Shown here piece by piece: positions 39,701-64,000 of a stretch of DNA of 64,000 nucleotides. The notes under the pieces were generated by a model that ran no database searches, was not told the origin of the DNA, and saw only the letters and a list, made by a program, of their open reading frames with translations. Within the stretch, counting starts at the first letter, position 1. The number at the start of each line of letters is the position of its first letter. Position numbers and translations under genes: made by a program. The stretch covers positions 744,001-808,000 of the forward strand of contig OZ024883.1 of assembly GCA_964017185.1 (NCBI GenBank), in the 5' to 3' direction. This stretch comes from Rugalucina vietnamica. Its lineage: Eukaryota > Mollusca > Bivalvia > Lucinida > Lucinidae.

Positions 39701-42700
39701 TAGTACCTGGTACATATACACAAAAATAATAGAAAATACTTCTAATAATGGGTTAATTCGTTAGCCTGACCTGAGATCCCTGATGTTGTAATACAGATGT
39801 TTTTCAAACATAGAAAATAACTGATCCATCACCACTTCTTACTCCCCTAACCCCCAAGCAACCCCCCTCCCCCACCCCCACACACATGCATAACATCAGA
39901 GGACCATTGGTCCTGAGAAAGGCTCACCTGAAGCCTGATCTTCGAGCATTTAGTCATCATGAAATGACCTTGACCTTGAATACTCACACACCTTTATTGA
40001 CTTCATTAGTTGTCTGCATCTGCCAAGTTTCAGGTTTAAGGCTGCAATAGTTTCCAAAAAAAACTTTTGTTTTCACATTTTTTCATGTAAAAGCCAGTTT
40101 CCAAAATTGACCTTGCTGTAAAATAGGTCAGGGTCATCATTTGAACAAACTATGATGAGCTAAGGTCCCTGATGCTACATACCAAGTTTCAGGAATATTG
40201 GCCCTCTGGTTCTGGAGAAGAAGATTCTTGAGCATTTGTGAGCATGGCAGCCATGTTGAGCATGCAACCCCAATTTCATGAACAAAATTTCATTCTCCCT
40301 ATGCATACAGGCTTCAAATAAAATTTCACATTCATAGGCTAAGAGGTTACTGAGAAACACAAGTCTTTTCGATAGTTCAATGACCTTGGGCCCAGGTCAA
40401 GAAATGACCATGACCTTAATTAATTGCATACCTTCATTAGATGTCTGCTTCTGCCAACTTTCAGGTCTAGGGTTGCAATATTTCCAAAATATCCACTGTT
40501 TTCACTTTTTCCCATGTACTAGCCTATGTATTCAAAACTGACCTTGCTGTAAAATTGGTCAAGGCCATCCTAGGGCCATCATTTGAACAAAGTATGATGG
40601 GCTGGAGTCCCAGATATTACATACCAAGTTTCGTGAAAATCAGCCCTACGGTTCTGGAGAAGAAGACTTTTGAGCATTTTTAAGCATGTCAGCTATGTTG
40701 AGCATTTGTCCCAGATTTCCCCCTATGCATGGAGGCTCCGCATAAAACTTCACTTTTATAGGCTAAGCGATTTCTCAGAAAAAAAAACAAACAAAATCTT
40801 AATTTTGATATTTCAATTATCTTAGAAATGACCTTGACCTTAATTGATTACATACAAAATTTCATTGCCACTACCCAAGGAATTTCAACTTAATCAACTT
40901 GATCGGCCAAGGGATTTCAGAGAAGAAGATCTTTGAAATTGTGACTTAATTTTGACATTTAAATGACCTTAGTTCAAGGTCATTTCTTAATTAATTACAT
41001 ACCATAATTGACTCCATTAGTTGTCTGCATGTAGCAACTTTCAAGTCTCAGGCTGCAAAAGTTTCCAAAAATATCCAATGTTTTCACCTTTTTCTATACT
41101 GAACAAAAAAAGAAACGCAACAATTATATTCCACTGAATTTGAGCAAACTACGATACAATTAGAAATCATTGCATTTTCTACTTCTGCATGAGATATCAG
41201 GCTTCCGAATGCAAGAAACCAATTTTCATTTTGATGAGTATTTACGGCGTTATTCGATGCCGACTATAGTCATGCTGAAAGTAGAAAACCACACAGTGCG
41301 CATGCGCAAGCATAAAAATAATGGTACGATTTAAATCCGCTATAAACCTTCATTCGAAATCACAATTAACCGCTCAGCAGATAACTCACATGTTAAAGAA
41401 ATAAAGCAATTTAAATTGAAATTATCCCCCTTACAATTAAACATATAGGGATTTTTATGGTTTTAATTTGTCGTGAAACTTTATTTCTTTTTCATGAATT
41501 TTAATAAGGGGGCAGCTGATATTGTTTCTTGATGATTTAGAGGTTCAAAAGAGTGCGCATGCGCAGAGCAAATCTTGCTCAATTTGCATTATTTAAGACG
41601 ACAAAAAATTTTCATTCAATTTTTATCGAAATGAAAATTGGGTTTTTGCATGATATACCCTAATATCCCACGAATGGGGACCATACAGCAACAGACCTGA
41701 AATTATTAACGTTTTATCATTAAACTCGAAAATCCTCGGTGGCCTATTGTTGCGTTTCTTTTTTTGTTCAGTATATATAAAAGTCTCTGTTTCCAACATT
41801 GACCTTGTTGTAAATAGGTAAAGGTCATCCTAGGTTCATCATTATGTCAAACTATATGATAGGCTGCAGTTTTCAATGATACATACCAAGTTCCATGGAA
41901 ATCGGCCCACAGGTTCTGGAGAAGAAGATTTTTGAAGGATTTTTACCATATATGGGCATGGTGGCCATCTTGGTCATGCACAAAGATATCCCGAACACAA
42001 TTTCAATGCCACTACCCAAGGAGGCTCCACATAAAATTTCAATTTCATTAGCCATGCGGTTTCCGAGAAGAAGATATTTGAAATTGTGACTTAATTTTGA
42101 CATTTCAATAACCTTGGGTCAAGGTCAAGAAATGATATTGACCTTAATTAATTACATACCTTCATTGACTCCATCAGTTGTTTACATCTAGCAACTTTCA
42201 AGTCTCAGGCTGCAGATGTTTTCAAAATATCCATTGTTTTCACCTTTTGCATATAAAAGTATAACTTTCCAACATTGACCTTGCCATAAAATAGGTCAAG
42301 GTCATCCTAGGTTCATCATTTTATCAAACTATGATGGGCTGGGGTCCCCAATGATACATATCATAATAAATGGAAATCGGCCCACCAGTTCTAGAGTAGA
42401 AGATTTTTGAAGGGTTTTTACCATGTATGTGCATGGTGGCCATCTTGGTCATGTCACTAAGAACAAAATTTCAATGCCACTACCCAAAGAGGCTCCACAT
42501 AAAATTTCAACTTAATCGGCCAAGCGTTTCAGAGCAGGAGATCTTTGAAATTGTGGAAGACTGACACATACAGGATCATGGCCATCCTATAAGCACATCT
42601 TGTGAGCCTTCACACGCCCGGTAAAGTGCAAATTGACCACCGCCGGTGGTCAACGTAAAAAAAGTTGATATACATCCGGTGGTCGTTTTGAGCGTTTCCT

Positions 42701-45700: not shown

Positions 45701-48700
45701 GCAAAAAAAAAATTGTATTTTGCCCTAGAATGCATATACATGTATTCATTTTTACCTTTCAATTTTGTTATTTGCCACTTAGCTTGTGAATACACTTACA
45801 GTTTAAAACACATTCCGTTTACATATTTTAGATCTATTCCGTGAAGAATAAAATTGAAACTATTTCTAAAAGTATATTTTTCTCAATTTTGAAAACCCGT
45901 ATCTTTTTAAAAAGCATGGATACCCCCACAAATAGTTTGCTGTTTGAGTAGCATTCCACCTATATTTTAAGCTGTCTAAAATTATAGATTTATTTATCAA
46001 CAAAAATTGGTATCGAGCCACCTTAAGTCCGTACATGTATACTAGCACCCCAAAGAAATCAAAACGAAGTTTGATTATGATAGACCATAGCTATGCAAAA
46101 GCACAAGCCTATACAGAATCTATTGGCAACAGCAATTCACAAGCTGTTGCACCCAGAGAACTTCTGATATAATTGATATGAACCACGTGATTATTCACCT
46201 TTACATATTCAAAGAATTGATATTGTAAAACAGGAGATAGATTTCATACAAACAACACAATGGACGCTTTGCTTAGTGTTACTCCTATAATTGTCGAATC
46301 TGCCAGACTGAGCCTGCTCAGCATTAAACAGCAGAGATGTCCTTCAATACTTTTCAAATTGGACAGTAAATCATTTCAAAATTGTTCATTTTAAGGTCAA
46401 ATTGACCACCTAGTTTGCAAATTGACCACACTGTTATTCTAGTGGTTTTTCTTCAAGTCAATGCGAATTATGTACATAAAATCAATGCATCTTGCATGAG
46501 GTAGTATTTGTATTGTTGGGGTTACCAAAAATTAGTAATAAATACATCCGATATTGCTAAACTATGTCACTGAATGGTTAATGGACAAACGAAATTGAAT
46601 TATGAGGACACCGACGGCATTGATTTGGATTTGGTTGTGTCTAGAATGCATCTCCATTAATGTTGCCGTGTCCCCTAACAGAAAACGACATCAAGTTGCA
46701 TTTTTTCTGGCTTTCTCTCACGATGAAAATTTACATTGTAATTCCCATTGATCAATACGACCACCGCAACTTCAAGTTGACCGCCGGTACGAAATCGATC
46801 TAAGTGTTGAAAGGAAAGCTTGAAATATTTTAAAATTATATCTGAAAAGCTAATTTAGTGTTCATTTAACTAACTGCAACGACCATTGGGTACAGAAAGC
46901 TTGCAAATGCACGATCAGGGCATTTTAACCTGTGTTTGACCAGATTCTACTTTCGTTTTCACTACCGATCAAACGGGCCGGAAAGGATTGCAGTAAAACA
47001 GTTTATTTTTTTCAACTACCACTTCGGCTAGACATTAAATGGCAAAAAACTGATAGCCTGACATTCTTTAATTTTTATAATACGTTTTTGATCAAAAATA
47101 TCTTACCTTCCACATCCACCAAACTCGCGAAAACTAATAACAGGAAACGCTCAAAACGACCACCGGATGTATATCAACTTTTTTACGTTGACCACTGGCG
47201 GTGGTCAATTTGCACTTAACCGGGCGTGCTTCAGCTCAGGTGAGCTAAAATGTACTTACTATGGGTTGATTCGTAAGTCTGACTAAGTCACTGATGTAGT
47301 ATTGATGTTTTTCAAACACAGAGAATAATTTATCCATAACCACTTCTTTATCCCCTACCCGTGAACTACTCCCCCCCCCCCCCCCCCCACACACACACAC
47401 ATAGCACAACAACAACTACTTACAATAGGTTGATTTGTAAGCCTGACTGGGTCACTGATGTTGTAGTACTGATGTTTTTCAAACACGGAGAATAATTTAT
47501 CCATCACCACTTCTTTATCCCCTACCCCCTAACTATCACCCAATATCCCCCCCCCCAACACACAAACACACACACATAGCACAACAATTACTTACAATAG
47601 GTTGGTTGGTAAGTCTGACTAGGTCACTGATGTTGTAGTACTGATGTTTTTCAAACACGGAGAATAATTTATCCATCACCACTTCTTTATCCATTCTCAT
47701 TCTTTTTCCTTCTTCTTTCATTTTCTTGTTGTGCTGTATCTGAAATTGAGATTTAAGAAATAGATCAGCTCTAGCAGTGAATTGTTGAGTAATAATTCAC
47801 TGTTTGGAGGTCAGTTGTAAAGAAGATCAAATCATGAGCGTGTAGCGCGAGTGATTTATCTTCTTACAATTGACCGACAAACAGTGAATTATTACTCAAC
47901 AATTCACGCACCTGAGCTGATCTATTTCGATTCTAACACACAATAAACGTAATAAATATTGCTGAAACCGTTGATATCGTTCAGCTTTCCGCCATTGCAT
48001 TGCAGATATCCCGCCAAATATTTGACTGTAATGCTGATATTTACACACACTTATTACGTTTGTTGTGCGCTAAAACGAAGTTTCACCATCTAACGCTGCT
48101 TTGTGGGATAGCTGACGTCACAAATGCTGCAAAGTAACGTCACGCTTATTCGCCCAGTGAAATTGTTGCACAATATAACACGTTTTTTACCATTGGCTAT
48201 ATAGGCGAGGTGTGTTAGAATAAATGTTTTTAGCCTGAGGTCCCTTTTATGGGACATAGGCAAACAGAATAGCCCCAGATGTGACGCCGCAGAACGCGGC
48301 GTCCCATCTGGGGCTATTCTGTTTGCTTAGAGAATTTTCATCGAAAAATAAAATAACATTTAAAAATCACTCCTGAGACCACTAAAAATGAAAGTCGACT
48401 CGCCCAAATGATAATGATGGAAAAATCCATTTGTCAAATATGGGTTAAATGTTTTTATTGATGTTGTTTGTTTGATATGCTACTTAACCTCCAAGTCAAA
48501 AGGTATGTTGATGTCAGGGTGTTGCCTTAATTTTAAAGGGTCTTCTACCACGAGCTTTGCTTGGAACCACAGAGTCATCTCATTTCAGCTCTCACAGCCC
48601 CAAAAGGTTGGAAGGCTTGATGCTATATAAGAAACTTCAATATGAAGTTTACTTTGTTATTGTTGAACCCAAACAGATTGGCAGATTTAGAGGGGATTTT

Positions 48701-51700
48701 GAGATTTGCTCCGACTCCCAAAACAACCATTTCTCGGATATTAATCAGCACTATTGGTAGTAAAATGTGTCTTGCTCAAGGACAAAACCAGCTGATGGGA
48801 TTCAAACCCTTGACCTGTGAATCCACACTCTAGACCTCCGAATCCACACTCTAGACCTCCGAATCCACACTCTAGACCTCCAAATCCACACTCTAGACCG
48901 CCAAATCTACACTAGACCTCCGAATCCACACTTTAGACCTCCGAATCCACACTCTAGACCTCTGAATCCACACTCTAGACCTCCGAATCCGCACTCTAGA
49001 ACTCCGAATCCGCATTCTGACACTCTACAACAAGGCCACCAAGCTCTTTCAGCTAAGATTGACTCAACTTGTGATGACAGAAAAAGACCATTCCAGAATA
49101 AGGCCCAAGGCGTGTTGTACTTTTGGGAGAGAACATGGGCCTGTGGCAATCATATGAGCAGACAATAAGGACAACATTGAACATTATGTGATAAGTTGGT
49201 TGCCATTGTTTGTTGATTAAGTGTTTTATGTCACACTCAATAGATACAATCATATGGAGATGAAACTTTGTTTAAAGTTTCATCTGAAAAACTAGGGAAG
49301 CTTGGGATCAAACCCAGGACCCCTAGATTACAAGGCCTGTGAATTAGCCTAGAAGACTTCTAATGTGAATGACCACTGACATATGGTTAAAACTAACATT
49401 ATGTGCATGGTCACTGACAGGTTTATACATGTAGACTACTTTTGTAATCTGTTTACAGCCATTCAACAGTCAGACAGAGTGTTATGATGTGTGTGTTGGT
49501 GTGTGTGTGTGGGGGGGGGGGGGGGGGGGTTGTGGTGAACTTACATTATGTGCGTGGTCACTGACTGGTTTATACATGTTGACAACTGTTGTGATTTGCT
49601 GAACTTCTCTCTTAGGCTTCTGTACTGACTCCATCTGTAACCTGAATAAAACAGAAAATAACTAATTAATAACAGTGATAATTCTCTCTACTATTGGAGG
49701 GTAGCATATTTAGCACAAATGCCAGTCTTTCATACGGTCCTCCAGTGAATACAGACATGAATTATTATGAGACTTTATCATACTTGCTTTAGTTTTTACA
49801 TGTGATGTTAGAAATGCAATAGTTTGGGAGGAGAGAAACCAATTCTTGCATTATAACGTTGAGTGTCAAACAAGGTGGCTAGTGGAACCACTACAAAATT
49901 GAGCCGTTGCACAAAAAGCAAACTGCATATACGAAAACAAAGACGCAGATCAGCTGTGCAGTTACAGATCAGCTGTGCAGTAACTGCACAGCTGATCAAC
50001 GCCTTAGTTTTCGCTACTCGGATAGTAGATTTCCTAATCTGCTAAAAAATTTCCAAAATTTCAAGCTTCTAGCTTGATTCTGTGACTGCACAGATTGGTT
50101 TGTGTCGGTCCTGGTCGGATACCACATTGTCGGTTTTCTAGTGCAGTGGCATTCCCAAAGCACTCTGACCATTAAGCTATCAGGGCTGACAACTGAAACA
50201 TAATTATGAGCTAGTAAACCTGTCAATAGAGTTTCCAAATAGGGCTCACAAAACAGGCCTATACAGCCAAAGACTGCAACAGGTAATTAGGGAAGTCATA
50301 GGCATGTGGGCTACCTCCCTAGCAAAATCACTTCATCTGAGTCACTTAGTCTTCACCACAGTGACCGAATGAAGACATGATAGAATGGTCACTCATCCTG
50401 TGCCAGACCTACGTTTTGCATAAAATACTGTATTCGTTCTAATTAGGGCACATGCTCCAATAAGCGCACAACCCTGTCGTTTCCGAAAAACAGGTGCATA
50501 AGCGCACACTGCGTCAATAGTATGTTGGTATTTTACACCAATTATACACAATCATAATGTATTAGACACATTGCAACTTAACCGTGAGCGATCATTAACT
50601 ACTTTGCAACAATTTGAACACTTAAATGACATCATCATTGATATATTTGACATGGTTATTTCAGCATTGTGATGTGTTGTTTTCGTTTGTAGTGTGTGCT
50701 TATTATAACGATATTTTCTTACCTCAACTTTTGGTCATTTTGAAAAGTTAAGCGCCATGTGCGCTAATTAGAATGAATAAGGTAACAAAACAAATGAAAA
50801 ACTACAACATGTTCTACTAAGATGCAGAATAGAACAAGATAAAGAAATTTTACAAATCTTACTTTTTTAGTTTGAGGTAGTTAGTATCTGCTACAGGACG
50901 ACATTCAGCTCGCTGTAAAACTTTGCCTTCTAGGGCTATTCTTTCTGGAATACATTACAAAAACATGCCCACGTAATATAAAGATTTATCTTAATTTGTA
51001 AAGAAATAAAAAAATTTATTGGATAATTTTTTATATTTTTCTTATTTTTGCTGAAAACATAGATTGTGGTTACACGTTAGAACCGCCTCGGCAAGGCGGT
51101 GCAGTTCTAACGAGTACCCACAATCTATGTTTTAGAGCAAAAATAAGAAAAATAAGTATACCCCTGCAAACCCCAGTTTTTCTTTACAAAGTGGGGTTTA
51201 AGGGGGTATATATTGCACAGATATTTTCCTGATGCTGTACTGATATTTTTACTGAAAACAAGTTAGTCATCTATGCAATGCTGACTCTGTGATCATGAAG
51301 TGGAATAAATTATAAGAAAATTGTGTTGCAATACGATTTTGTTAGAATGTTACTATATGATGTCTGCCTCACAGAAATGATGGTTTAAAATTTCAAATTT
51401 GTGTTAAAGGATTAGCCTTTGAATGAAGTAGGAGTGATCACTTCAGTTGAAACTACAATAAGATGTGCTGAACCAAAAGCAAGCATCTTAGAAGACATTC
51501 AACACAACACCCAAAGAAGAATCAAGATGGCTAGAAGGTTTGAATATTTCCAATCAAGGAAGCAGTAAGATCATTATATGCAATAACAACAAAGGCATAA
51601 ATCAAGGGCATTTTACATGTGCAGCTGATTGAATATGCCTTTGTTAAAATATTTGCACAAAGTTGTTTTTCCCATGAGGGCAGCTTAAAATTTGAAAATT

Positions 51701-54700
51701 GGTTGAAATGAAGAAATTGTAACAGTACGAAAACATGCCCATGTAATATACAATTTTTTCTTAAGTTGTATAAATTTAAAAATTTGAGAAGATTTTTTAA
51801 AATATTTTTCTCATTATTGCTCAAAACATAGCTTGTGGGTTTATGTTAGAACCTCCTCGGTGAGGCGGTTCTAACGAGTCCTCACAATCAATGTTTTGGA
51901 GCAAAAATAAGAAAGATTGGTATACCCCTCCATACCCCAGTTTTGCTATATAAAAATGGGGTTCGAGGGGGTATACTTTTCATGGACGTTTTCCTGATGA
52001 AAAAAGAACACTGATATTTTTACTGAAAACAAGTACCCCTGCATACCCCAGTTTTGCTATATAAAAATGGGGTTCAAGGGGGTATAAATGTCACGGACAT
52101 TGTTATCCTGATGAAAATCTTCCAGCTAGTAGAAACAGAATTACCTGATATGGCCTCTGCTGATGAACTGACTGAGGTTGAGCTTTCTGAAAATAACAGA
52201 AATATAATATTATTTAATGTTTTATTTTATTTTATTTTATTTTTTTTTTTTAATTATACTTGAATAGCCTAACAATAGTTAGCCGCTAAACATCTCAGAT
52301 AAGCAATGTGTTATAATTAGCCCATAATTTATGGGAAAGGGACTTTATAAGCTGAAAGCTTTCGTTCTAATCCTATACTTCATTATTGTATGTACATATG
52401 TTTCACATGTCAAACTTATATTGAGAATAAATATGTTTAAACTAAACTATTTAGCCCATAATTATGCTCTTTAAAACACACACCAGGTTTTTTCTTCTTT
52501 TTTTTCTCAAAAAAGCTGTGATTAATAAAACAAAGCACAATGATAATTTATAATGCAGCCACTTCAGACTTTTCTTAACATATTGGAGGCACATGTAACT
52601 GTTTGATTTTAACATCCCAATCAACCATTATTTCAGTCATGTTGAGACTTCCTCAGCAGTTCCACAACTATGTGGAGTCAACTCAGCCAATATAGGGTCC
52701 AAACCCAAGACCTCTTGATTCATATAGTCCCACAATATACCTTAGTAGTCTAAGCTACTCAATAGCTGCTGGTTATTCAGAGACAACCAACATGACTGAG
52801 AACAACTACCACAGGGATAATCAATATGTAACAATATTATATAGGGTTCAAATATGATTTTCCAGTCATTAACATTCGCTAGGTCCCTAGGGGAGTGTTG
52901 AAAACCCAGGGCGCAACATGAATTCTGCATAAAAGAAAGAAATAATGGTGCACTATATTTTACAGGCTCATTTTCATACGCATTAAAGTTTTCATCCTTA
53001 TGCTTGTTCCGGGTAGACTTCAGATACTCATTATTAGCGTGTGTTTTGCGTGGCGCCCGGTAACGAGCATAAATAAAAGCCATGTATGAACAGCATGCAC
53101 ACACGCAAATTGCTATAGTAATACATGGCTTTCTTTTTATTAATATATGGCTGTTAATATCGTGTGACACATGTAAATATGCAAGAATATGTAATAATGC
53201 CACTGATTGGAATGATCCATGCAAAGATGTTCCCAGACAGGTATTTGAATATGTCTTCAGTCAAATATTGATTTTATCTGCATTGATTGTTCCCAGTCTT
53301 GTTGCATGTCTCTGAATAATCTGCATGACACTGGCTGCTAAGTTTTCTTTACCTGTTGGTTGTCTAGAGTAGACCAAGAGGTTCTGGTTCCCTACACCAG
53401 TCAGTATAAACTGGTGATCTTTCCCTACGACTGCAGGCTGACCAGGTACTAGAGTAGACCTAGCTGTTGGTTGTCTGGAGTAGACCATGAGGTTCTGGTT
53501 GCCCACACCAGTCAGTATAAACTGGTGATCTTTCCCTATGAATACAGGCTGACCTGGTACTAGAGTAGACCTACCTGTTGGTTGTCTGGAGTAGACCATG
53601 AGGTTCTGGTTCCCCACACCAGTCAGTATAAACTGGTGATCTTTCCCTACGACAGCAGGCTGACCTGGTACTAGAGTAGACCTACCTGTTGGTTGTCTGG
53701 AGTAGACCATGAGGTTCTGGTTGCCCACACAAGTCAGAACCAGAGGACCAATGGTCCTGTAAACGCTCACCTGAGTCTGCTGCATATACCAATAAACATG
53801 TTTGAATATTATGGTATTTAACCCCAGTACAGGGGCTTATGAAGACCTTGGGCCGTTTTCCTTTTTTCAGAATAATCAATATTCTGTCCATTTGCCAATT
53901 TCTTGCTGGCTTTTCCCTTCAAATGACATTTTAACAGTTTTTCCCATTCAAATGCATGGGCAACCCATGTTGACCTTGCCATAAACTTGGTCAAGGTTAT
54001 CACAGGGTCATGATTTATATATTTATTGTAGTACTTTAGCCATGGATGCTTCACGCCAAGTTTCATTGAAATCAATCGATTGGTTTCAGAGAAAAAGATA
54101 TTTGAAGGGTTTTTACCATATATGGGCATGGCGGCCATCTTGGTCATGTGACCTACATTATTAATATATACATTGGTTCCCCCATCCTATAGATGCGTCA
54201 CATAAAATTTGGCTTCAATTGGCCAAGTGGTTTCAGAGGAGAAGATGTTTGAATATTATGGTAATATACATGTATATTGCCCTGAGGTGTGGACATATGA
54301 GCCCTAAGGTCCAATTTTTTTTTTTCAGAATCATTAATATTTAGTCCTACTACCCATTTCCTGCAAGATTTTCACCTCAAATGACTTTTTAAAAGTTTTC
54401 CCCATTCCAATGCATTGGCGACCTATGTTGACCTAGTCGTAAAATAGGTCAAGGTCACCACAGGGTCATGATTTATATACACATTGTAGTACTTCAGCCA
54501 TTGGTGCTTCATGTCAAGTTTCTTTGAAATCGGTCCACCAGATTCGGAGAAGAAGATTTTGGAAGGTTTTTACCATATATGGGCATGGCAGCCATCTTGG
54601 TCATGTGAACTAGATAATTTATATATACATTAATTCCCCCATTCCATAGATGCTTCACATAAAATTTGGCTTTGATTCGCTAAGCGGTTTCAGAGGAGAA

Positions 54701-57700
54701 GATGTTTGAATATTATGGTAATATACATGTATATTGCCCTGGGGTGGGGGCAGATGAGCCCCTGGGGTCCAATGTTTGTCAAAATCATTAATATTCAGTC
54801 CTACTGCCCATTTCCTGCAAGACTTTCACTTTAATTGACATTTTAAAAGTTTTCCCTATTCAAATGCATTGGCGACCTATGTTGACCTTCACGTAAAAAA
54901 GGTCAAGGTCATCACAGGGTCATGATTTATATACACATTGTAGTACTTGAGCCATCGATGCTTCATGCCAAGTTTCTTTGAAATCGATCCACTGGTTCTG
55001 GAGAAGAAGATTTTTGAAGGGTTTTTACCATATATGGGCATTGCGGCCATCTTGGTCATGTGACCTGGATTATTTATATATACATTTAATAATTACCTCT
55101 TCCTATTGATGCTTCACATAAAATTTGGCTTTGATTGGCCAAGCGGTTTCAGAGGAGATGATGTTTGAATATTATGGTAATATACATGTATATTGCCCCG
55201 GGGTGGGGGCATATGAGCCCCTGGGGTCCAATTTTTTTCAGAATCATTAATATTCAGTCCTACTGCCCATTTCCTGCAAGACTTTTGACTTTAAATGACA
55301 TTTTAAAAGTTTTCCCCATTCAAATGCATTGGCGACCTATGTTGACCTTGCCGTAAAACAGGTCAAGGTCATCACAGGGTCATGATTTATATACACATTG
55401 TAGTGCTTGAGCCATCGATGCTTCATGCCAAGTTTGGTTGAAATCAGTCCATTGGTTCTGAAGAAGAAGATTTTTGAAGGGTTTTTACCATATATGGGCA
55501 TGGCGGCCATCTTGGTCATGTGACCTGGATTTCTTATATATACATTGGTTCCCCCTTCCTATAGATGCTTCATATAAAATTTGGCTTTGGTTGGCGAAGT
55601 GGTTTCAGAGAAGAAGATCTTTGAAATTGTGGACGAACGGACGGACGGACGACGGACGCCGGACGGACGCCGGATCATGGCCATCCTATAAGCTCACCTT
55701 GTGAGCCTAACGGCTCAGGTGAGCTAATAAACTGATGACCTTTCCCGATGACTACAGGCTGACCTGGTACTAGAGTAGACCTACCTGTTGGTTGTCTGGA
55801 GTAGACCATGAGGTTCTGGTTGCCCACACCAGTCAGTATAAACTGGTGATCTTTCCCTATGACTACAGGCTGACCTGGTACTAGAGTAGACCTACCTGTT
55901 GGTTGTCTAGAGTAGACCATGAGGTTCTGGTTGCCCACACCAGTCAGTATAAACTAGTGATCTTTCCCTATGACTACAGGCTGACCTGGTACTAGAGTAG
56001 ACCTACCTGTTGGTTGTCTGGAGTAGACCATGAGGTTCTGGTTGCCCACACCAGTCAGTATAAACTGGTGATCTTTCCCTACCACAGCAGGCTGACCTGG
56101 TACTAGAGTAGACCTACCTGTTGGTTGTCTGGAGTAGACCATGAGGTTCTGGTTGCCCACACCAGTCAGTATAAACTGGTGATCTTTCCCTACGACAGCA
56201 GGCTGACCTGGTACTAGAGTAGACCTACCTGTTGGTTGTCTGGAGTAGACCAAGAGGTTCTGGTTGCCCACACCAGTCAGTATAAACTGGTGATCTTTCC
56301 CTACGACAGCAGGCTGACCTGGTACTAGAGTAGACCTACCTGTTGGTTGTCTGGAGTAGACCAAGAGGTTCTGGTTGCCCACACCAGTCAGTATAAACTG
56401 GTGATCTTTCCCTACCACAGCAGGCTGACCTGGTACTAGAGTAGACCTACCTGTTGGTTGTCTGGAGTAGACCAAGAGGTTCTGGTTGCCCACACCAGTC
56501 AGTATAAACTGGTGATCTTTCCCTATGACTACAGGCTGACCTGGTACTAGAGTAGACCTACCTGTTGGTTGTCTGGAGTAGACCATGAGGTTCTGGTTGC
56601 CCACACCAGTCAGTATAAACTGGTGATCTTTCCCTACCACAGCAGGCTGACCTGGTACTAGAGTAGACCTACCTGTTGGTTGTCTGGAGTAGACCATGAG
56701 GTTCTGGTTGCCCACACCAGTCAGTATAAACTGGTGATCTTTCCCTACCACAGCAGGCTGACCTGGTACTAGAGTAGACCTACCTGTTGGTTGTCTGGAG
56801 TAGACCATGAGGTTCTGGTTGCCCACACCAGTCAGAATAAACTGATGATCTTTCCCTATGACTACAGGCTGACCTGGTACTAGAATAGACCTACCTGTTG
56901 GTTGTCTGGAGTAGGCCATGAGGTTCTGGTTGCCCACACCAGTCAGTATAAACTGGTGATCTTTCCCTACCACAGCAGGCTGACCTGGTACTAGAGTAGA
57001 CCTACCTGTTTGTTGTCTAGAGTAGACCATGAGGTTCTGGTTGCCCACACCAGTCAGAATAAACTGGTGATCTTTCCCTACGACAGCAGGCTGACCTGGT
57101 ACTAGAGTAGACCTACCTGTTGGTTGTCTGGAGTAGACCATGAGGTTCTGGTTGCCCACACCAGTCAGTATAAACTGGTGATCTTTCCCTTCCACAGCAG
57201 GCTGACCTGGTACTAGAGTAGACCTAGCTGTTGGTTGTTTGGAGTAGACCATGAGGTTCTGGTTGTCCACACCAGTCAGTATAAACTGGTGATCTTTCCC
57301 TATGACTACAGGCTGACCTGGTACTAGAGTAGACCTACCTGTTGGTTGTTTGGAGTAGACCATGAGGTTCTGGTTCCCCACACCAGTCAGTATAAACTGA
57401 TGATCTTTCCCTACGACTGCAGGCTGACCTGGTACTAGAGTAGACCTACCTGTTGGTCGTCTGGAGTAGACCATGAGGTTCTGGTTGCCCACACCAGTCA
57501 GTATAAACTGGTGATCTTTCCCTCGACAGCAGGCTGACCAGGTACTAGAGTAGACCTACCTGTTGGTTGTCTAGAGTAGACCATGAGGTTCTGGTTGCCC
57601 ACACCAGTCAGAATAAAATGATGATCTTTCCCTATGACTACAGGCTGACCTGGTACTAGAATAGACCTACCTGTTGGTTGTCTAGAGTAGACCATGAGGT

Positions 57701-59575
57701 TCTGGTTGCCCACACCAGTCAGAATAAACTGATGATCTTTCCCTATGACTACAGGCTGACCTGGTACTAGAGTAGACCTACCTGTTGGTTGTCTGGAGTA
57801 GACCATGAGGTTCTGGTTGCCCACACCAGTCAGAATAAAATGATGATCTTTCCCTATGACTACAGGCTGACCTGGTACTAGAATAGACCTACCTGTTGGT
57901 TGTCTAGAGTAGACCATGAGGTTCTGGTTGCCCACACCAGTCAGAATAAAATGATGATCTTTCCCTATGACTACAGGCTGACCTGGTACTAGAATAGACC
58001 TACCTGTTGGTTGTCTAGAGTAGACCATGAGGTTCTGGTTGCCCACACCAGTCAGAATAAACTGATGATCTTTCCCTATGACTACAGGCTGACCTGGTAC
58101 TAGAGTAGACCTACCTGTTGGTTGTCTGGAGTAGACCATGAGGTTCTGGTTGCCCACACCAGTCAGTATAAACTGGTGATCTTTCCCTACGACTGCAGGC
58201 TGACCTGGTACTTCACACTTCACTTGGCCTTCACTCATAGTAAACATAACCTCAGCTTTCTTACCAGGTAACCTAGGACAGAGAGAAAGACTTGTCATAA
58301 AACTGGCATACATATAATAGCCACTGCACGGAAAAACCAACAATTTGGGTTCTTACCAGATACGACACAAACTGTCTTAGGGTGCAGCCACAGAAGCAGG
58401 TTAGACGTTTGAAAATTTGAATATAAGTAGAAGAGGAATTGTACTATCCTTGTAGAAAAAACAAAAGCTCTGATCAGCTGTGCAGATACTGCAGCTGATC
58501 TGTGCCTTTGTTTTCGCATATAGGCAAAAATCCAGTTTTCTCATGACATGGCTCATATACATTACAACCTTATTATAACACTATCTTTGGGATCCACAGA
58601 AACAGATTGTGTTATAAATGAAACTGTCTTATATTGAGGTTCTTTACTTCAGGAACTATAGAAAAATAATCATTTTGGTGCCATGACATGGCCGTGTTAT
58701 ACTGAAAACCATGTTATAATGAGGCACATTATAATAAGGTTAAACTGTACATACTGATTTTTGAACAATTTTCTTGTCAAGACTATCTGGAGAAGTAAGA
58801 GGTATTGAAGTGTTTTCAGGGTTCTGATAAATGTAATTTTGCACAAACCTGAAAAAATTGTATTTGCCTAGATGTAGTCACACTGAGCACTTAGTTATTT
58901 AGCATTTTGATCTCTTGTGTAATGGTACAGTAGAAAGGATACTGCCTCTTTATCATTACGAAAACATGCCCATGCAATATATATAATTTTCCTAAGTTGT
59001 AAATTTTTTTCTTATTTTTGCTCAAAACATAGACTGTGGGTACTCGACAAGGCAGCTCTAACGAGTACCCACAATCAATGTTTTAGAGCAAAAACAGGTA
59101 AACCCCTGTATATCCCTGTTTTACTTTATATTTTTTTTTTCTTTTTTTATTTTATTTATTTATATTTTTTTTTTGTATTGAGGCTTAACGTCCCAGTCAA
59201 CAACTTTTCAGTCATGTCGGGACGGAACCAACTCTTCCTGGGTTTAACCAGTACTGTAGGGAGTTAATGTTTTGCTCGAGGACACAACACGGTGACGCCT
59301 CTGGGGATCGAACCCAGGACCTCTCGATTCGGAGTCCGACGCTCTACCACTATGCCACCGTGCTCCCTAAAGTGAGGTTTGATGGGATATATACTACACA
59401 GACATGTTATCCTGATGTTTAAAAATCTTTTTGACCATTTTCCTACATGAAAACTGATGGGCAACAGCAAAGCAAATTTCTTTAAAGAAACTTACTTTGA
59501 CCTGGTGATTCTAAGTTTTCCAACTTCACATTTCCCATCAGCGTTCTTCCATCTCTCTGACAAATACTTGGGCAC
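27603..59575 (-). CDS. GTF2F2: GTF2F2, general transcription factor IIF beta subunit (RAP30), all but the first coding exon
   Basis: TFIIF beta pairs with TFIIF alpha (RAP74) and brings RNA polymerase II into the preinitiation complex in the nucleus. Exons on the minus strand, 5' to 3': 59496-59575, 58115-58272 (first unit of a repeat array), 52145-52186, 50863-50944, 49545-49641, 47596-47739, 27603-27713. All have AG/GT borders and compatible phases (0/2, 2/1, 1/2, 2/2, 2/0, 0/0, 0/stop). The joined reading matches the family throughout: VPKYLSERW...EVGKLRI near the N-terminus, DHQFILTGVGNQNLMVYSRQ in the dimerisation barrel, LEGKVLQRAECRPVADTNYL, then the winged helix with FSVFEKHQYYN and the end KNMWELKPEYRHYKEQK. 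With one repeat unit and an expected first exon of about 22 codons the product is about 260 residues (human: 249). The first exon (usually ending GVWLVK) was not found and probably lies beyond 64000. The last intron is about 19.9 kb and full of transposons. Confidence 0.95.
27751..29496 (+). mobile_element. Family D hairpin MITE, copy 2, split by a pearl element
   Basis: 27751-27931 and 29423-29496 are the two parts: ...GCAAAAATAAGAA | AAATAGGTAAACCCC. The A-tract at the junction is duplicated by the insertion. Confidence 0.9.
27932..29422 (-). mobile_element. Pearl-like element E3 (family E)
   Basis: CCAGAGGACCAATGGTCCTG start, three core units of about 450 bp each with AGGTCAAGGTCA(T/C), a (GACGGACG)n stretch, and tip GGCTCAGGTGAGCT end. 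AA is present on both sides of the element. Confidence 0.9.
29497..29989. other. Intron, nothing recognised
   Basis: Lies in the last GTF2F2 intron. No exon or known repeat seen. Confidence 0.4.
29990..30132 (-). mobile_element. Family A MITE, degenerate copy 10
   Basis: Recognised by GGTTTCCCACCAGG, ACAAACCAGGCTGTAC, CAGCTGATCTGCAG and GTGGCTCA. The first palindrome arm is missing. Confidence 0.65.
30508..30762 (+). mobile_element. tRNA-derived SINE, family 1 (full length)
   Basis: The head GTGGCCGAGCGGTTAAGAGC is a clear Leu/Ser-type A-box region; B-box GGATTCAAGCCCC follows. Body CAAGTTCTGCTTGCGGGTGT and AGGTGGTTTTTCTCAGGGTG, tail TTGAAAGGGACATAAAACTG then A-rich. Copies lie at 1508-1706 and 33560-33828. 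Confidence 0.85.
30763..31333. other. Intron, nothing recognised
   Basis: Only short simple repeats (AGACGGTCAGACAGACGCTT type, 31020-31060). Confidence 0.4.
31334..31467 (+). mobile_element. Family A MITE, copy 11, internal deletion
   Basis: GAGCATGATCATGAGAAAAA to TTTTCCCACGAGGTGGCTC with ATAT on both flanks. The central palindrome is deleted after GCGAAAACATAGGC, as expected for slippage across a hairpin. Confidence 0.85.
31468..32436. other. Intron, one SINE-tail fragment
   Basis: TATGTCCCAGTCAACAGCTA at 31823 matches the common SINE tail; the rest shows no signal. Short (AT)n at 31661. Confidence 0.4.
32437..32675 (+). mobile_element. Family A MITE, copy 12 (TGTGC-type stem)
   Basis: Full length with ATAT flanks. 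Palindrome arms read CAGATCAGCTGTGCAGTAAC / TGCACAGCTGATCAGCG, a matched change from the TTCGC/GCGAA stem of other copies. Confidence 0.9.
32676..33250. other. Intron, nothing recognised
   Basis: AT-rich, no family repeat or exon seen. Confidence 0.4.
33251..33487 (+). mobile_element. Family A MITE, copy 13
   Basis: GAGCCGCATCATGAGAAAAC to CGTTTTTTCGCGTCACGGCTC end; left stem half CTCTGCAG no longer pairs fully with CTGCACAG. Confidence 0.9.
33560..33828 (-). mobile_element. tRNA-derived SINE, family 1
   Basis: Reverse orientation; GTGGGGCTCGAACCCACACC is the B-box region and CAGCCTCTTAAACACTCCGC the A-box side. Confidence 0.75.
33829..34431. other. Intron, nothing recognised
   Basis: No exon or repeat family seen. 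Confidence 0.4.
34432..34606. repeat. Family A end fused to family C repeat
   Basis: GAGCCGCATCATGAGAAAAC at 34431 breaks off after the terminus and continues as AGCAGGATAAATTACAGG ... CAGCTGAGTTGAGCGTGAAA, the family C sequence also at 11688-11868. Confidence 0.65.
34893..35130 (+). mobile_element. Family A MITE, copy 14
   Basis: GAGCCACGTCATGAGAAAAC start; stem CTTTGCAGTAACTGCAAAG is again internally matched. The right end is decayed. Confidence 0.85.
35252..35489 (-). mobile_element. Family A MITE, copy 15
   Basis: GAGCCGTGACGAGAGAAAAC start; contains a duplicated GGTCGGACAGTGTCCGACGG stretch. The palindrome is mostly lost. Confidence 0.75.
35610..35725 (+). mobile_element. tRNA-like SINE head fragment
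   Basis: GGTCTAGTGGTATAGTGTCA resembles an A-box region and GTGTTGTGCTGTGTCCTTGA matches the body of SINE family 2. Preceded by (ACT)n. Confidence 0.5.
35785..35832. mobile_element. Family B MITE, short copy
   Basis: AACCTCATTATAACCATG to GTGTTATAATGAGGTT: only the TIRs and a few bases remain. Confidence 0.65.
36004..36225 (+). mobile_element. Family A MITE, copy 16
   Basis: GAGTTGTGAGAAAATCGG start, GATTTTCTCGTGTTGCGGCTC end; stem CTTCGCAGTTATTGCGAAG intact. Confidence 0.88.
36325..36978. mobile_element. Harbinger-like MITE with repetitive interior
   Basis: TIR AGCCCCGTTTACACATTCAC GATTTT at both ends; TAA on both flanks (36322-36324, 36979-36981), the PIF/Harbinger type of target. The 654-bp body is an unusual mosaic of short words such as CGTAGCG, ACCGTA and GAATCGTGG in both orientations. 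Confidence 0.88.
37150..37408 (+). mobile_element. Family D hairpin MITE, copy 3
   Basis: GAAAACATGCCCATCAAATA to TTTACAGACATGTTATC; the hairpin core GTTAGAACCGCCTCTAACGA is shortened. Confidence 0.85.
37448..37678 (+). mobile_element. Family A MITE, copy 17, core deletion
   Basis: GAACCGCATCATGAGAAAAA to GGTTTTCTCGTACAGTGGCTC. Most of the palindrome loop is missing (GATAAACTTCAGCTGATAAA). Confidence 0.85.
37679..38418. other. Intron, nothing recognised
   Basis: Homopolymer runs and (TG)n near 37995; no exon or family repeat. Confidence 0.4.
38419..38676 (-). mobile_element. Family D hairpin MITE, copy 4
   Basis: Opposite orientation: GTATGCCCCTTTATACC at the left, CATTGTGGACACTCATTAGAG CCGCCTCGGTGAGGC core, TGGGCAAGTTTTTGT at the right. 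Confidence 0.82.
38985..39405 (-). mobile_element. Pearl-like element, short variant
   Basis: Two diverged core repeats (GGGCCGTAACTTTGTCAA / GGGCAATACCTCTTCTGC; GGTTCTCAAGTTATGAGTGG), then a (GGACAGAA)n-type microsatellite at 39315-39360. The tips are not clear. Confidence 0.5.
39741..39842 (-). repeat. Third echo of the FEKHQYY exon, separated by a pearl element
   Basis: This repeats the same exon part as the copies at 47254-47523, more diverged. It was adjacent to them before a pearl-like element with its own nested insertions (39897-47247) landed in the spacer: the CACACATGCATAACA spacer ends at the element and resumes after it as TGTACTTACTA. Confidence 0.83.
41099..41771. mobile_element. 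Mariner/Tc1-type MITE
   Basis: Perfect 26-bp TIRs starting CTGAACAAAAAAAGAAACGC, TA on both sides (41097-41098, 41772-41773), 673 bp, noncoding. Confidence 0.93.
43669..44470 (-). repeat. Pearl-like core repeats inside the 4.6-kb element
   Basis: Four units of about 180 bp with TAGATTTTGACCTCTAGCCC and CACCCCCGG...CATGGACCCAGGGTCCG; the same core as at 8085-8760, inverted. It ends in (AACG)n at 44373-44440 and GTCGGCATAAATGCTGGGGG. Confidence 0.75.
44775..44954 (+). CDS. Basic Ser/Lys-rich C-terminal exon, function unknown
   Basis: After a strong acceptor (TTTTCTTTTATACTTTACAG) the frame is open for 59 codons: EIQDVVQSPFKSPSKKKPKY, then SSSPYRAIGSSPQKTICSKI, then YTPKGKFGFPKKKNIKTGT and TAA at 44952-44954. 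PSKKKPK and PKKKN look like nuclear localisation signals, and SP/TP pairs could be phosphorylation sites. It looks like the C-terminus of a nuclear protein. Since it sits in the loop of the long-TIR element, it is either the last exon of that element's own gene or a captured host exon. No upstream exon was found. Confidence 0.5.
   Translation, partial: EIQDVVQSPFKSPSKKKPKYSSSPYRAIGSSPQKTICSKIYTPKGKFGFPKKKNIKTGT
44955..46170. other. Loop of the 4.6-kb element, nothing further recognised
   Basis: Very AT-rich with poly-T/poly-A runs; the frames here look accidental. Confidence 0.45.
47254..47523 (-). repeat. Two echoes of the FEKHQYY exon (about 160-bp unit)
   Basis: Positions 47418-47523 and 47254-47352 repeat the 3' two thirds of the exon, starting at the same internal point (GGATAAAGAAGTGG on the minus strand), together with the donor region and a C-rich/CA-rich intron piece. 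Both have substitutions (for example YYN codons altered in the second) and no upstream acceptor. The spacers hold C-runs and (CA)n that may vary in length. Confidence 0.88.
47596..47739 (-). CDS. GTF2F2: GTF2F2 exon: winged-helix domain (FEKHQYYN)
   Basis: 144 bp, phase 0 on both sides, acceptor AATTTCAG, donor GTAAGT. It codes IQHNKKMKEEGKRMRMDKEV then VMDKLFSVFEKHQYYNISDL and VRLTNQPI. This is the core of the DNA-binding winged helix of RAP30 (human KKKEDGKRARADK...FSAFEKHQYYNLKDLV). A strong inverted repeat starts only about 15 bp upstream of the acceptor. Confidence 0.97.
47757..47935. repeat. Fold-back repeat next to the FEKHQYY exon acceptor
   Basis: AAATAGATCAGCTC...GTGAATTGTTGAGTAATAAT at the left pairs with ATTATTACTCAACAATTCAC ... 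GAGCTGATCTATTT at the right. It starts about 15 bp from the acceptor, so the branch point probably falls in it. Confidence 0.85.
47930..48222. mobile_element. MITE-like element with TTCTAACACAC ends
   Basis: TTCTAACACACAATAAACGT at the left and GTGTGTTAGAA at the right; an internal inverted copy (TTATTACGTTTGTTGTGCGC) lies at about 48051. Confidence 0.55.
48260..48326. repeat. Strong hairpin (GCAAACAGAATAGCCCCAGA)
   Basis: 67-nt palindrome: 22-bp outer arms GCAAACAGAATAGCCCCAGA TG, then a nested GACGCCGC-AGAAC-GCGGCGTC stem. GC-rich compared with its surroundings. Confidence 0.9.
48327..48814. other. Intron with a SINE-like fragment
   Basis: GTCTTGCTCAAGGACAAAAC then GGGATTCAAACCC (48770-48805) resembles an inverted SINE head. 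Nothing else is recognised. Confidence 0.4.
48815..49018. repeat. 21-bp minisatellite
   Basis: About 9-10 copies of CCGAATCCACACTCTAGACCT. On the minus strand it reads as a Gly/Cys repeat (ECGFGGL), most likely without coding meaning. Confidence 0.9.
49394..49460 (-). repeat. Decayed echo of the GTF2F2 linker exon
   Basis: The stretch ACATTATGTGCATGGTCACT and the following TTTATACATGTAGAC repeat the 3' part of the exon at 49545-49641, about 148 bp downstream in gene orientation, with several substitutions. A G-rich simple repeat separates the two copies. It has no acceptor of its own. Confidence 0.75.
49545..49641 (-). CDS. GTF2F2: GTF2F2 exon: linker before the winged helix
   Basis: 97 bp, acceptor TTATTCAG, donor GTAAGT. 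It codes LQMESVQKPKREVQQITTVV then NMYKPVSDHAHN, equivalent to human LQIEESSKPVRLSQQLDKVV then TTNYKPVANHQYN. It ends in phase 0. Confidence 0.93.
49901..50150 (+). mobile_element. Family A MITE, copy 18, with duplicated arm
   Basis: GAGCCGTTGCACAAAAAGC start. The arm CAGATCAGCTGTGCAGTTA is doubled (CAGATCAGCTGTGCAGTAAC) before the matching ACTGCACAGCTGATC, a duplication inside the palindrome. Confidence 0.85.
50426..50784. mobile_element. Family I MITE, copy 2
   Basis: TACTGTATTCGTTCTAATTA to TAATTAGAATGAATAAGGTA; the same GCGCAC words as copy 1. Confidence 0.85.
50863..50944 (-). CDS. GTF2F2: GTF2F2 exon: LEGKVLQRAECRP segment
   Basis: 82 bp, acceptor GTATTCCAG, donor GTAAGA. It codes RIALEGKVLQRAECRPVADT then NYLKLK and two bases that complete Lys in the next exon. 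The match to human LEGIVVQRAECRPAASENYMRLKR is clear. Confidence 0.95.
50959..51230 (+). mobile_element. Family D hairpin MITE, copy 5
   Basis: AAAACATGCCCACGTAATAT to GCACAGATATTTTCC; core GTTAGAACCGCCTCGGCAAG GCGG. It lies 15 bp upstream of a GTF2F2 exon acceptor. Confidence 0.88.
51231..51728. other. Intron, nothing recognised
   Basis: A CACATGTGCAGCTGATTGAA TATGCC piece may be a family A remnant. No exon. Confidence 0.35.
51729..51993 (+). mobile_element. Family D hairpin MITE, copy 6
   Basis: GAAAACATGCCCATGTAATA start; core GTTAGAACCTCCTCGGTGAG GCGG; ends TCATGGACGTTTTCC. Confidence 0.88.
52034..52112 (+). repeat. Duplicated 3' end of family D copy 6
   Basis: TACCCCTGCATACCCCAGTT ... 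CACGGACATTGTTATCCTGA repeats the last 80 bp of the preceding copy, ending about 30 bp from the GTF2F2 micro-exon donor. Confidence 0.85.
52145..52186 (-). CDS. GTF2F2: GTF2F2 micro-exon: Ser-rich linker
   Basis: 42 bp, acceptor TTATTTTCAG, donor GTAATT. Phase 1 to 2 reading gives (E)SSTSVSSSAEAIS(E). It joins the barrel exon to RIALEGKV and matches the TESSSDKLSLEG region of human RAP30 in position and composition. Its phase fits every repeat-unit donor. Confidence 0.85.
52187..53352. other. Intron with a SINE fragment
   Basis: 52600-52745 reads as an inverted SINE (ATCCCAATCAACCATTATTT, GGGTCCAAACCCAAGACC). The open frames at 52742-53224 and just past the array are probably chance; the piece coding NLAASVMQIIQRH continues the array frame beyond the donor at 53352. 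Confidence 0.45.
53353..58205 (-). repeat. GTF2F2: 26-unit, 111-bp (37-aa) tandem amplification of a GTF2F2 exon
   Basis: About 26 near-identical 111-bp units, counted by the GGTTCTGGTT landmark, each code 37 residues around GKDHQFILTGVGNQNLMVYS. Two main variants differ at PAVV versus PVVI. The repeated peptide is the RAP30 segment that reads EHPFVLQSVGGQTLTVF in human. Reading from the 5' end, six units are open. A one-base deletion (CCCTCGAC instead of CCCTACGAC, near 57522) then shifts the frame. A further 13-14 units are open to a stop at about 55955 (CAG to TAG). A pearl-like element interrupts the array at 53739-55725. The last four units end in donor CAACAG|GTAAAG at 53352. Almost all units carry CAACAG|GTAGGT in the same phase; two (about 53465 and 57232) have lost it (GCTAGG). 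The array is either an oversized, now broken exon, or mostly intron with about two dozen competing 5' splice sites. Confidence 0.93.
53739..55725 (-). mobile_element. Pearl-like element E5 inside the GTF2F2 repeat array
   Basis: CCAGAGGACCAATGGTCCTG start; four core units with AGGTCAAGGTCA; (GGACGGAC)n; tip GGCTCAGGTGAGCT. It splits one 111-bp unit as CAGTCAGAA | AATAAACTG, with AA on both sides. It makes a read-through of the whole array impossible. Confidence 0.93.
58115..58272 (-). CDS. GTF2F2: GTF2F2 exon: first unit of the amplified dimerisation-barrel exon
   Basis: The acceptor TGTCCTAG ends at 58273. The exon opens LPGKKAEVMFTMSEGQVKC, corresponding to human RTEVSFTLNE, then VPGQPAVVGKDHQFILTGVG and NQNLMVYSRQPT. 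A strong donor CAACAG|GTAGGT lies at 58114. Spliced here, G joins AA of the exon at 52186 to give Glu (QPT-E-SSTSV), like human TVFTESSS. This is the only unit with the unique 5' part, so it is the simplest productive exon. Confidence 0.8.
58319..58554 (-). mobile_element. Family A MITE, copy 19
   Basis: GCCACTGCACGGAAAAACC start, GTTTTCTCATGACATGGCTC end. It ends about 45 bp from the acceptor of the amplified GTF2F2 exon. Confidence 0.85.
58565..58745. mobile_element. Family B MITE, copy 3
   Basis: AACCTTATTATAACACTATC to CATTATAATAAGGTT; GCCATGACATGGCCGTGTTA interior. Lies 10 bp from a family A copy. Confidence 0.8.
58842..58985 (+). repeat. Direct duplication, left copy
   Basis: GCACAAACCTGAAAAAATTG ... 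CATGCCCATGCAATATA is repeated at 59759-59916 with about 15 extra bases (AAATATTTTTGCAAC) in the second copy. Confidence 0.9.
58960..59414 (+). mobile_element. Family D hairpin MITE, copy 7, split by a SINE
   Basis: 58960-59140 and 59368-59414 are the two parts; GAAAACATGCCCATGCAATA start, CACAGACATGTTATCC end. Confidence 0.82.
59163..59367 (-). mobile_element. tRNA-derived SINE, family 2, nested in family D
   Basis: On the minus strand: GGAGCACGGTGGCATAGTGG TAGAGCGTCGGACTCC (A-box region), GGGTTCGATCCCC (B-box), a body with GTGTTGTGTCCTCGAGC, and tail GTTGACTGGGACGTTAAGCC. A T-rich stretch (the A-rich tail) lies at 59140-59175. This is the best-preserved copy here. Confidence 0.88.
59496..59575 (-). 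CDS. GTF2F2: GTF2F2 exon: VPKYLSERW segment
   Basis: 80 bp, acceptor TTGTTTCAG, donor GTAAGT. It codes VPKYLSERWKNADGKCEVGK then LRITRS plus two bases (AA) that join G of the next exon to make Lys. This is the second conserved block of RAP30 (VPKYLSQQW...EVGKLRI in human). Confidence 0.95.
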
Positions 59576-62271: not shown

Positions 62272-64000
62272 TTAAAGTTCTGTTTCTCTGTTTTTGAATC
62301 CCACTATATAGTCTTTAAGTTTAGGCGGTGGTCTTCGTGTTCTTTGTGGAAGTTGCCTTCTCGGAGGTTCTGGTCGTCTGATACATTGTCGCCCTGTTCC
62401 AACTTCGTTTTGGTGGTTCCTAATCTCTTCCTCGTTGTAGCCGTCGTGTCTCGCTTCCTCTTCCCTTGCCTCATTTCGTTCCTCCTGCGCCGGTGGTTCT
62501 GTTTCGTTCGTGGTTGCCTTCGGTTTGCGCCTGGATGATCTCAACAAGCGCTCTCTCCAGTCATTGTTCCTGGCTTCGTTGAACTGCTTAAATTTTGAAG
62601 CATCTCTGGTTATGGTGCGTCCATCTGATGTCCTCTTCGCATCTATTGTTGATCCGCTTATCCCGGTTATTCTATAGTATTCTTTTTCGAATGCTGGGGA
62701 CCATTTATTAACCTTTCGTTTCTTCAGCAGTACTTTGTCCCCAATATTGAATCGATGCTTCTCGACCTTTGGATGTCTATGCTGATTCTCCCAGTTCCGT
62801 TTGTACGCTTTGTCTCTTTTGGTGATTTCTGTCTCCATTTTGTGGTAGTTTTTTCTCATGGACAAAGAGTCGTAGTCCAGTTTAGTTCTCACATTTCTTC
62901 TCATAAGGGCCTCGTACGGACAATAACCTGTAGCTGGATGCGGCGTTGATCGGTAGCCCATGAGCATGTCTTGTAGTGCAGCGCTACTGGCTCTCCCTTC
63001 GCTATGCGCTATTTGTTCTGTTTTATTCAGAACCTTCATGAACCTTTCGGCCTCACCGTTTGCTCTGGGGTGTTCCGGGGTCACTCTGTGGTGTTGAAAC
63101 CCCATTTCTTCAGCGAAGTTTCTAAAATCTATCGAGTTGAATGGTGGACCATTGTCTGACTCGAGCCTCATTGGTATTCCGTGCATGGCAAATATCTTTC
63201 TTAACCTATCGCATGTTGCTTTGGAGGAAGTTGTCGTCATTTGCTCAACCACTGGAAACCTTGTCCGCTTATCGATTACAACCAGATTGTAATGACCATC
63301 TGGGTATGGACCACCGAAATCAACAGATAACGTATGCCAAGCTGTCTCTGGTATGTCTGTTGGTTTTACTGGCTCCTGTCTGTGTTCTTCAGTGCATATC
63401 TGACATTCGTGGCATTTTGAAATCGCATCCTCAACCATGCTGTTGAGTCTCGGAAACCAATACTTGGCTCGTAGCATCTTCTTCGTTTTCGTCATCCCGA
63501 AATGCCCCATGCTGTGAGCGGCTGTTATGACATCTTTCTGTAGTTTCTCTGGGATAACTATCTGTCTGCAACGTAGAAGCATCCCCTTTGCTTTGCAGAG
63601 TTCATGCCGAACTAGGAAATATGGCTTTATTTCTGGCTTGTCCTTATGTCTATCCCAGTCGTTTTGTTTCATAATGTTCAATATCTCTTGAAGAACTGGA
63701 TCTGATGTCGTTGCTTCTTTTATACTCTTCATGATGACTCCATGTTCATTGCTAACTATCAGATTTATCATTTTCTCTGTGTCATCTGTCTCAGTTTCTG
63801 GAAGTGGATGTCTCGACAAATAATCCATCGGGTCTGCTGAGTCCTTGCCTGGTTCATACACGAGCTCATAGTCAACATCTTGCATTTCCATAACCCATTT
63901 CTCTATTCTTGGGGGTAGCTTTGTACAAGATTTGTTGAACATAGGTATCAGCGGTTTGTGGGAGGTCATGATCGTGAACCTTGGTGCTCCTAGCAGGTAC
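62272..64000 (-). CDS. Ty3/gypsy Pol C-terminal part (RNase H end plus integrase), partial
   Basis: The frame is open to the window edge; the ATG at 63969 is internal, since YLLGAPRFTI precedes it in frame. RNase H end: MTSHKPLIPMF, then RIEKWVMEMQDVDYELVYEP and the DYLSRHP motif. The catalytic Asp of the usual TDHKPL motif is Ser here (TCC). Integrase: His/Cys zinc site (HSMGHFG ... CHECQIC), catalytic Asp in SVDFGG, Asp in ESDNGPPF, Glu in NGEAERF. C-terminal part: FNIGDKVLLKKRKVNKWSP, then a charged Arg/Glu-rich tail ending FKNRETEL-stop. No stop or frameshift in 565 codons. The missing Asp could mean a defective copy or a lineage feature. Confidence 0.93.
   Translation of the reverse strand, partial: YLLGAPRFTIMTSHKPLIPMFNKSCTKLPPRIEKWVMEMQDVDYELVYEPGKDSADPMDYLSRHPLPETETDDTEKMINLIVSNEHGVIMKSIKEATTSDPVLQEILNIMKQNDWDRHKDKPEIKPYFLVRHELCKAKGMLLRCRQIVIPEKLQKDVITAAHSMGHFGMTKTKKMLRAKYWFPRLNSMVEDAISKCHECQICTEEHRQEPVKPTDIPETAWHTLSVDFGGPYPDGHYNLVVIDKRTRFPVVEQMTTTSSKATCDRLRKIFAMHGIPMRLESDNGPPFNSIDFRNFAEEMGFQHHRVTPEHPRANGEAERFMKVLNKTEQIAHSEGRASSAALQDMLMGYRSTPHPATGYCPYEALMRRNVRTKLDYDSLSMRKNYHKMETEITKRDKAYKRNWENQHRHPKVEKHRFNIGDKVLLKKRKVNKWSPAFEKEYYRITGISGSTIDAKRTSDGRTITRDASKFKQFNEARNNDWRERLLRSSRRKPKATTNETEPPAQEERNEAREEEARHDGYNEEEIRNHQNEVGTGRQCIRRPEPPRRQLPQRTRRPPPKLKDYIVGFKNRETEL

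Follow-up and report, generated by a model that had tools for sequence, protein, structure and literature searches.

How a gene for a core transcription factor came to hold 26 tandem copies of the end of one of its exons, and what such an array means for its product, is the question raised by the window studied here, a stretch of 64,000 nucleotides from the bivalve Rugalucina vietnamica (contig OZ024883.1, positions 744,001 to 808,000; coordinates below are those of the window). The original prediction saw in the array an amplification of part of the fold of TFIIF beta. The account favored here, which can be held with considerable confidence, is that it represents a minisatellite lying across the boundary of exon 3 and intron 3 in a working bivalve GTF2F2 gene, with the extra copies being spliced out.

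The gene in the window is GTF2F2, which codes for RAP30 (TFIIF beta). Exons 2–8 are within the window and exon 1 is beyond it; joined together, these exons form one open frame with AG/GT borders on the minus strand, running from 59575 to a stop at 27603, which bears out the earlier claim that the exons flanking the array are in compatible phase. The exons are as follows:

59496 to 59575, minus strand: exon 2, with AG/GT borders, a phase fitting exon 3 and a match to the database protein P0001
58115 to 58272, minus strand: exon 3 in its most likely spliced form, its last part being unit 1 of the array; borders tctctgtcctag/...CAACAG/gtaggt, phase-1 donor, P0001 in agreement
52145 to 52186, minus strand: exon 4
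50863 to 50944, minus strand: exon 5
49545 to 49641, minus strand: exon 6
47596 to 47739, minus strand: exon 7
27603 to 27713, minus strand: exon 8, the last, containing the stop codon

From these coordinates intron 2 can be computed to span 1223 bases and intron 3 to span 5928 bases; intron 6 holds 10 copies of a 21-bp tandem repeat (48812–49018). The identification as RAP30/GTF2F2, already made in the original prediction, is secured by the protein encoded by exons 2–8 with one unit, which matches both the N-terminal dimerization domain (Pfam PF17683, 41.6 bits against a cut-off of 25) and the C-terminal winged helix (PF02270, 86.4 bits against a cut-off of 23), and which aligns to PDB GTF2F2 chains over residues 23–244. 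The 37-aa unit alone matched no Pfam family. The named proteins nearest to the joined product are those of Mactra antiquata (70% identity over the full query), Mya arenaria (68%) and Mercenaria mercenaria (68%), all three being heterodont bivalves.

The array and the lesions within it are located as follows:

53353 to 58211, minus strand: the array, in which 26 units of 111 bp each consist of the 3' part of exon 3, a 5' splice site and a short tail
57436 to 57545, minus strand: unit 7, with a 1-bp deletion; the first read-through stop follows at 57500
55882 to 55992, minus strand: unit 21, with an in-frame TAG
53738 to 55726 (ends approximate), minus strand: transposable element splitting unit 23, with a core of ~460-bp tandem repeats (Tandem Repeats Finder row 53862–55632; junctions)

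Tandem Repeats Finder reports the 111-bp array in two stretches, at 53350–53737 (3.5 copies, 93% matches) and 55727–58212 (22.4 copies, 96% matches), and anchoring on the unit start with up to 2 mismatches gives a count of 26 units. The unit count of the original prediction thus stands, as do the one-base deletion, the TAG, the insertion of about 2 kb, past which unit 23 resumes at 53737, and the six units in frame from the 5' end: on reading through from exon 3, units 1–6 are open up to the stop in unit 7. The spacing is 111 bp throughout, save for unit 7 (110 bp) and the split unit 23. Among the 25 unsplit units the pairwise identity is 90–100% (mean 95%), with 22 variable positions in mixed combinations. 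Unit 26 diverges from the unit sequence past GTA, and nothing of the array lies beyond it.

Each unit begins inside exon 3, passes the last base of the exon (ACAG) and continues through a donor, GTAGGT, into the short tail; unit 1 is the end of exon 3 itself. The presence of the exon's own 5' splice site in the unit went unmentioned in the original prediction. The GT is retained in 24 of the 26 units and the entire GTAGGT in 23, while units 9 and 25 lack the GT (ACAG/CTAGGT) and the last unit reads ACAG/GTAAAG. All the units after the first lack the exon 3 acceptor, being preceded only by a CTCTAG junction with a pyrimidine tract that, judged by eye, is poor. The array is hence no tandem duplication of a whole exon, in which each copy would have an acceptor as well as a donor. 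Read as a stand-alone exon, unit 2 would measure 96 nt and have a fitting phase; despite this, on account of the poor tract at the CTCTAG acceptor, stand-alone cassette exons are retained only as part of the bolder, improbable proposition given below, under which such a later unit would be a potential phase-1 cassette exon and raw material for new exons and introns. The tail, GGTCTACTCTAG, is one base off a stretch within unit 1, and the same stretch is identical to it in other units, e.g., unit 2; a shuffled tail came equally close to unit 1 in 4 of 20000 trials. This suggests that the tail may be templated filler from the first duplication event.

Since every unit comes with a 5' splice site, and nearly every one of these is an intact donor, the first donor can be joined to exon 4 with units 2–26 being removed as intron, and a normal transcript needs no more than one unit. 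With the first donor in use, exon 3 is 158 nt long, the intron extends from 58114 to exon 4, and joining on to exons 4–8 yields full-length TFIIF beta except for exon 1. The U1 duplex energy of the first donor (GTAGGT) is -11.8 kcal/mol versus -8.3 for the last donor of the array; the donors of exons 2 and 4–7 range from -4.5 to -8.1 kcal/mol. As for how a spliceosome chooses among such donors, one study (PMC9225289) records that exon-defined minigenes given two strong donors of identical sequence were spliced exclusively at the one lying upstream, and that the upstream donor was favored in 60% of strength-matched human alternative-donor events, whereas the downstream one was preferred in about 60% of all human alternative-donor events taken together. 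Such mammalian results would carry over to a bivalve only by extrapolation. In Rugalucina vietnamica main use of the first donor appears probable.

The protein databases point in the same direction. P0001 is 98% identical to the spliced sequence across the full 237-aa query, with 4 of 237 residues differing, and it contains a single unit, which passes into exon 4 at the residue expected. Its source contig measures 965 bp, whereas the same exons cover about 32 kb in the window, and P0001 must therefore represent a spliced sequence. It may derive from a sister species whose GTF2F2 is devoid of the array, and repeats can in principle be lost by collapse when a contig is built from short reads. 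An open reading frame from a 960-kb contig of a relative (P0121) has one unit followed directly by unrelated residues until its end, as expected if that relative is without the array, though copies farther along would escape view. When a query made of the start of exon 3 and units 1–6 was scored against 7995 candidates, all 12 proteins that matched it were found to hold one unit. Likewise, the 533-aa open frame of units 7–21 gave no match at E<=0.001 when scored against 7994 candidates of 0.55–1.75 times its length, and hence no database protein bearing the array was seen. Two GTF2F2-like gene models of the crayfish Procambarus clarkii (P0013 and P0079) have the C-terminal or N-terminal part repeated and may be tandem gene copies fused in annotation.

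These results bear on the possibility that the array acts as a ladder of competing donors that is partly used, with some mRNAs retaining 2–6 units and giving a TFIIF beta whose dimerization barrel contains additional blocks of 37 aa. The arrangement does leave room for some multi-unit transcripts, for 111 bp preserves the frame, units 1–6 are open, and their donors are identical, in phase 1 and each able to join exon 4 in frame. Nevertheless, the absence of multi-unit proteins from the 12 matches, the lack of significant constraint on the units and the smaller duplications at exons 6 and 7 considered below make this unlikely. With respect to constraint, the coding part of 25 units (unit 23 was left out) has 21 distinct variants, 8 synonymous and 13 nonsynonymous; without constraint 5.5 synonymous ones would be expected (P=0.15). 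This is a weak test with small numbers, in which the excess of synonymous variants is in the direction of slight constraint and is not significant; protein-level constraint on the units was considered and is not supported. Among the variants seen once, 7 of 8 are nonsynonymous and one of those is a stop. Both the variation among units and the frameshift fit with what would be passenger DNA. An amplified protein fold as the main meaning of the array, as originally predicted, was accordingly abandoned: each unit has a 5' splice site, both P0001 and the matches to the six-unit query have one unit, and significant constraint is lacking.

On the preferred account of a spliced-out minisatellite, the array would have started as a tandem duplication covering ~97 bases at the 3' end of exon 3 together with the first part of the 5' splice site; replication slippage or template switching is the probable mechanism. 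A 12-base filler would have been joined to the duplicated segment, and the whole would later have expanded to 26 units. Splicing would then lead from the first donor (58115) directly to exon 4, with units 2–26 discarded as part of the intron, such that the resulting protein would have one normal unit while the array would drift as passenger DNA.

That such events are not confined to exon 3 can be seen from the further partial copies of exons in the same gene, which the original prediction did not mention:

49391 to 49451, minus strand: extra copy of the 3' end of exon 6 (61 bp, 87% identity), with the donor AAT/GTTAGT
47253 to 47520, minus strand: two extra copies of the 3' part of exon 7 (87% and 89% identity), with donors after 47424 and 47260
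39712 to 39840, minus strand: older, displaced copy of the 3' part of exon 7 (76% identity over 129 bp; tblastn)
27429 to 27512, minus strand: extra copy of the 3' part of exon 8 (80% identity)
24325 to 24406, minus strand: extra copy of the 3' part of exon 8 (94% identity)

Thus, four of the seven exons (3, 6, 7 and 8) have extra copies, every one of which starts within its exon and sits 3' of it, while blastn of the window (E<=1e-3) returned no 5' part of an exon copied upstream for any of the seven. This asymmetry may reflect survivorship, as a duplication that begins within an exon and carries the donor along would keep the first copy working and hide the rest in the intron. The read-through stops of exon 6 (49484) and exon 7 (47538) precede the next copy, and the extra copies there therefore cannot be translated through use of a donor farther downstream. 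This is an argument for regarding the in-frame length of 111 bp at exon 3 as luck, a chance of one in three.

Duplications at several exons, along with the 4 residues at which P0001 differs, might also be taken as signs of a non-functional or diverging copy, with an intact one-unit GTF2F2 elsewhere in the genome. This is quite improbable given that exons 2–8 have their AG/GT borders, an intact frame and 98% identity to a spliced sequence; moreover, the presence of introns means that the locus is not a retrocopy, an origin that was rejected for this reason. The locus is, on its sequence, probably functional. Another alternative, that the array or its copy number was made by the assembler, has in its favor the general difficulty of assembling long near-identical arrays, and one amphioxus globin mirage was aberrantly assembled in a genome draft, as stated in the available part of the report (PMC3087553). 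It is extremely improbable in the face of the 22 variable positions in mixed combinations among the unsplit units, a transposon inside one unit and the smaller duplications at exons 6–8. The copy number could nonetheless deviate from 26.

The window is otherwise populated by transposable elements. A transposon end, TAGCTCACCTGAGC, occurs in five copies when one mismatch is allowed, at 3178 on the plus strand and at 5871, 29423, 47247 and 55726 on the minus strand, the last of which interrupts unit 23, the insertion point lying apparently between two T's, with no clear target duplication; ~455-bp tandem repeats adjoin three of the five. The elements bearing this end resemble the bivalve 'pearl' or Helentron-type elements. 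At 17059–21978 on the minus strand, a 1639-aa open frame codes for SCAN and integrase (H2C2, rve) domains followed by reverse transcriptase and RNase H; by its domains this is a Ty3/gypsy-type element with the integrase before the reverse transcriptase, as in the Gmr1 group, and it is probably a recent insertion. Upstream of exon 2, an open-ended frame with integrase domains (62272–63999, minus strand) is part of a second gypsy-type element.

What sets the GTF2F2 array apart is its size and the recurrence of such duplications at four of the seven exons of one core gene. It can be seen as a natural 26-fold experiment in donor duplication, performed in a gene that should pay dearly for a wrong choice, and RNA from this animal would therefore directly test whether the donor nearest to the acceptor prevails. 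The array further suggests that donor-carrying copies of exons can accumulate unnoticed in the introns of core genes, and gene predictors may misreport such arrays as repeat proteins. A bolder proposition, to which a low but real likelihood may be assigned, is that 23 identical donors and a weaker terminal one behind a single acceptor give rise to isoforms in 37-aa steps of up to six units in some cells or haplotypes, and that a process in this lineage repeatedly copies the 3' ends of exons together with their donors.

Among known systems, partial parallels exist outside the mollusks. Among the papers listed by the literature searches, judged by title and the start of the abstract, no molluscan exon-boundary minisatellite emerged; the entries included one on introns of cone-snail genes, one on amphioxus PGBD5 and one on earthworm metallothionein genes that contains the terms minisatellite and splice site (PMC12783039). 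In human genes within segmental duplications, internal tandem repeats at exon–intron boundaries can alter introns or exons, and these, like the GTF2F2 array, are minisatellite expansions at exon borders; however, going by the available text, their units average about 30 bp with 4 repeats and belong to primate-specific paralogues rather than to a core transcription factor (PMC2812944). The potato RdRp gene, as far as its available description extends, offers a tandem duplication that similarly crosses an exon border and turns partly intronic, though there a new intron arises, whereas in GTF2F2 an intron already in place, intron 3, has most likely become longer (PMC4974935). The closest counterparts are the amphioxus 'mirages', which the available sections of two reports describe as minisatellite-like tandem duplications of exon–intron boundaries in Adh3, BflGb6, BflGb9, troponin C and PGBD5, with units of 10–72 bp in Adh3 and 150–160 bp in the globins, many with AG/GT signals, and which, as far as tested, do not disturb regular splicing (PMC3087553, PMC3902484). 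Units of the BflGb6 mirage are 81–100% alike (same sources). As in these mirages, so far as they are described there, the 26 GTF2F2 units span an exon–intron boundary and bear splice signals (the GT donor in 24). In contrast, the 26 copies in the single haplotype analyzed compare with 6 and 3 in the two BflGb6 haplotypes, and four exons of one gene are hit with copies solely on the 3' side, whereas in amphioxus, on the same accounts, both boundaries are hit, with the 3' end of an intron and the start of exon 2 being duplicated in BflGb6 and the 3' boundary of exon 2 in BflGb9. The GTF2F2 array fits the structural features of the mirage class, and, lying in another phylum, it suggests that exon-boundary minisatellites are not specific to amphioxus.
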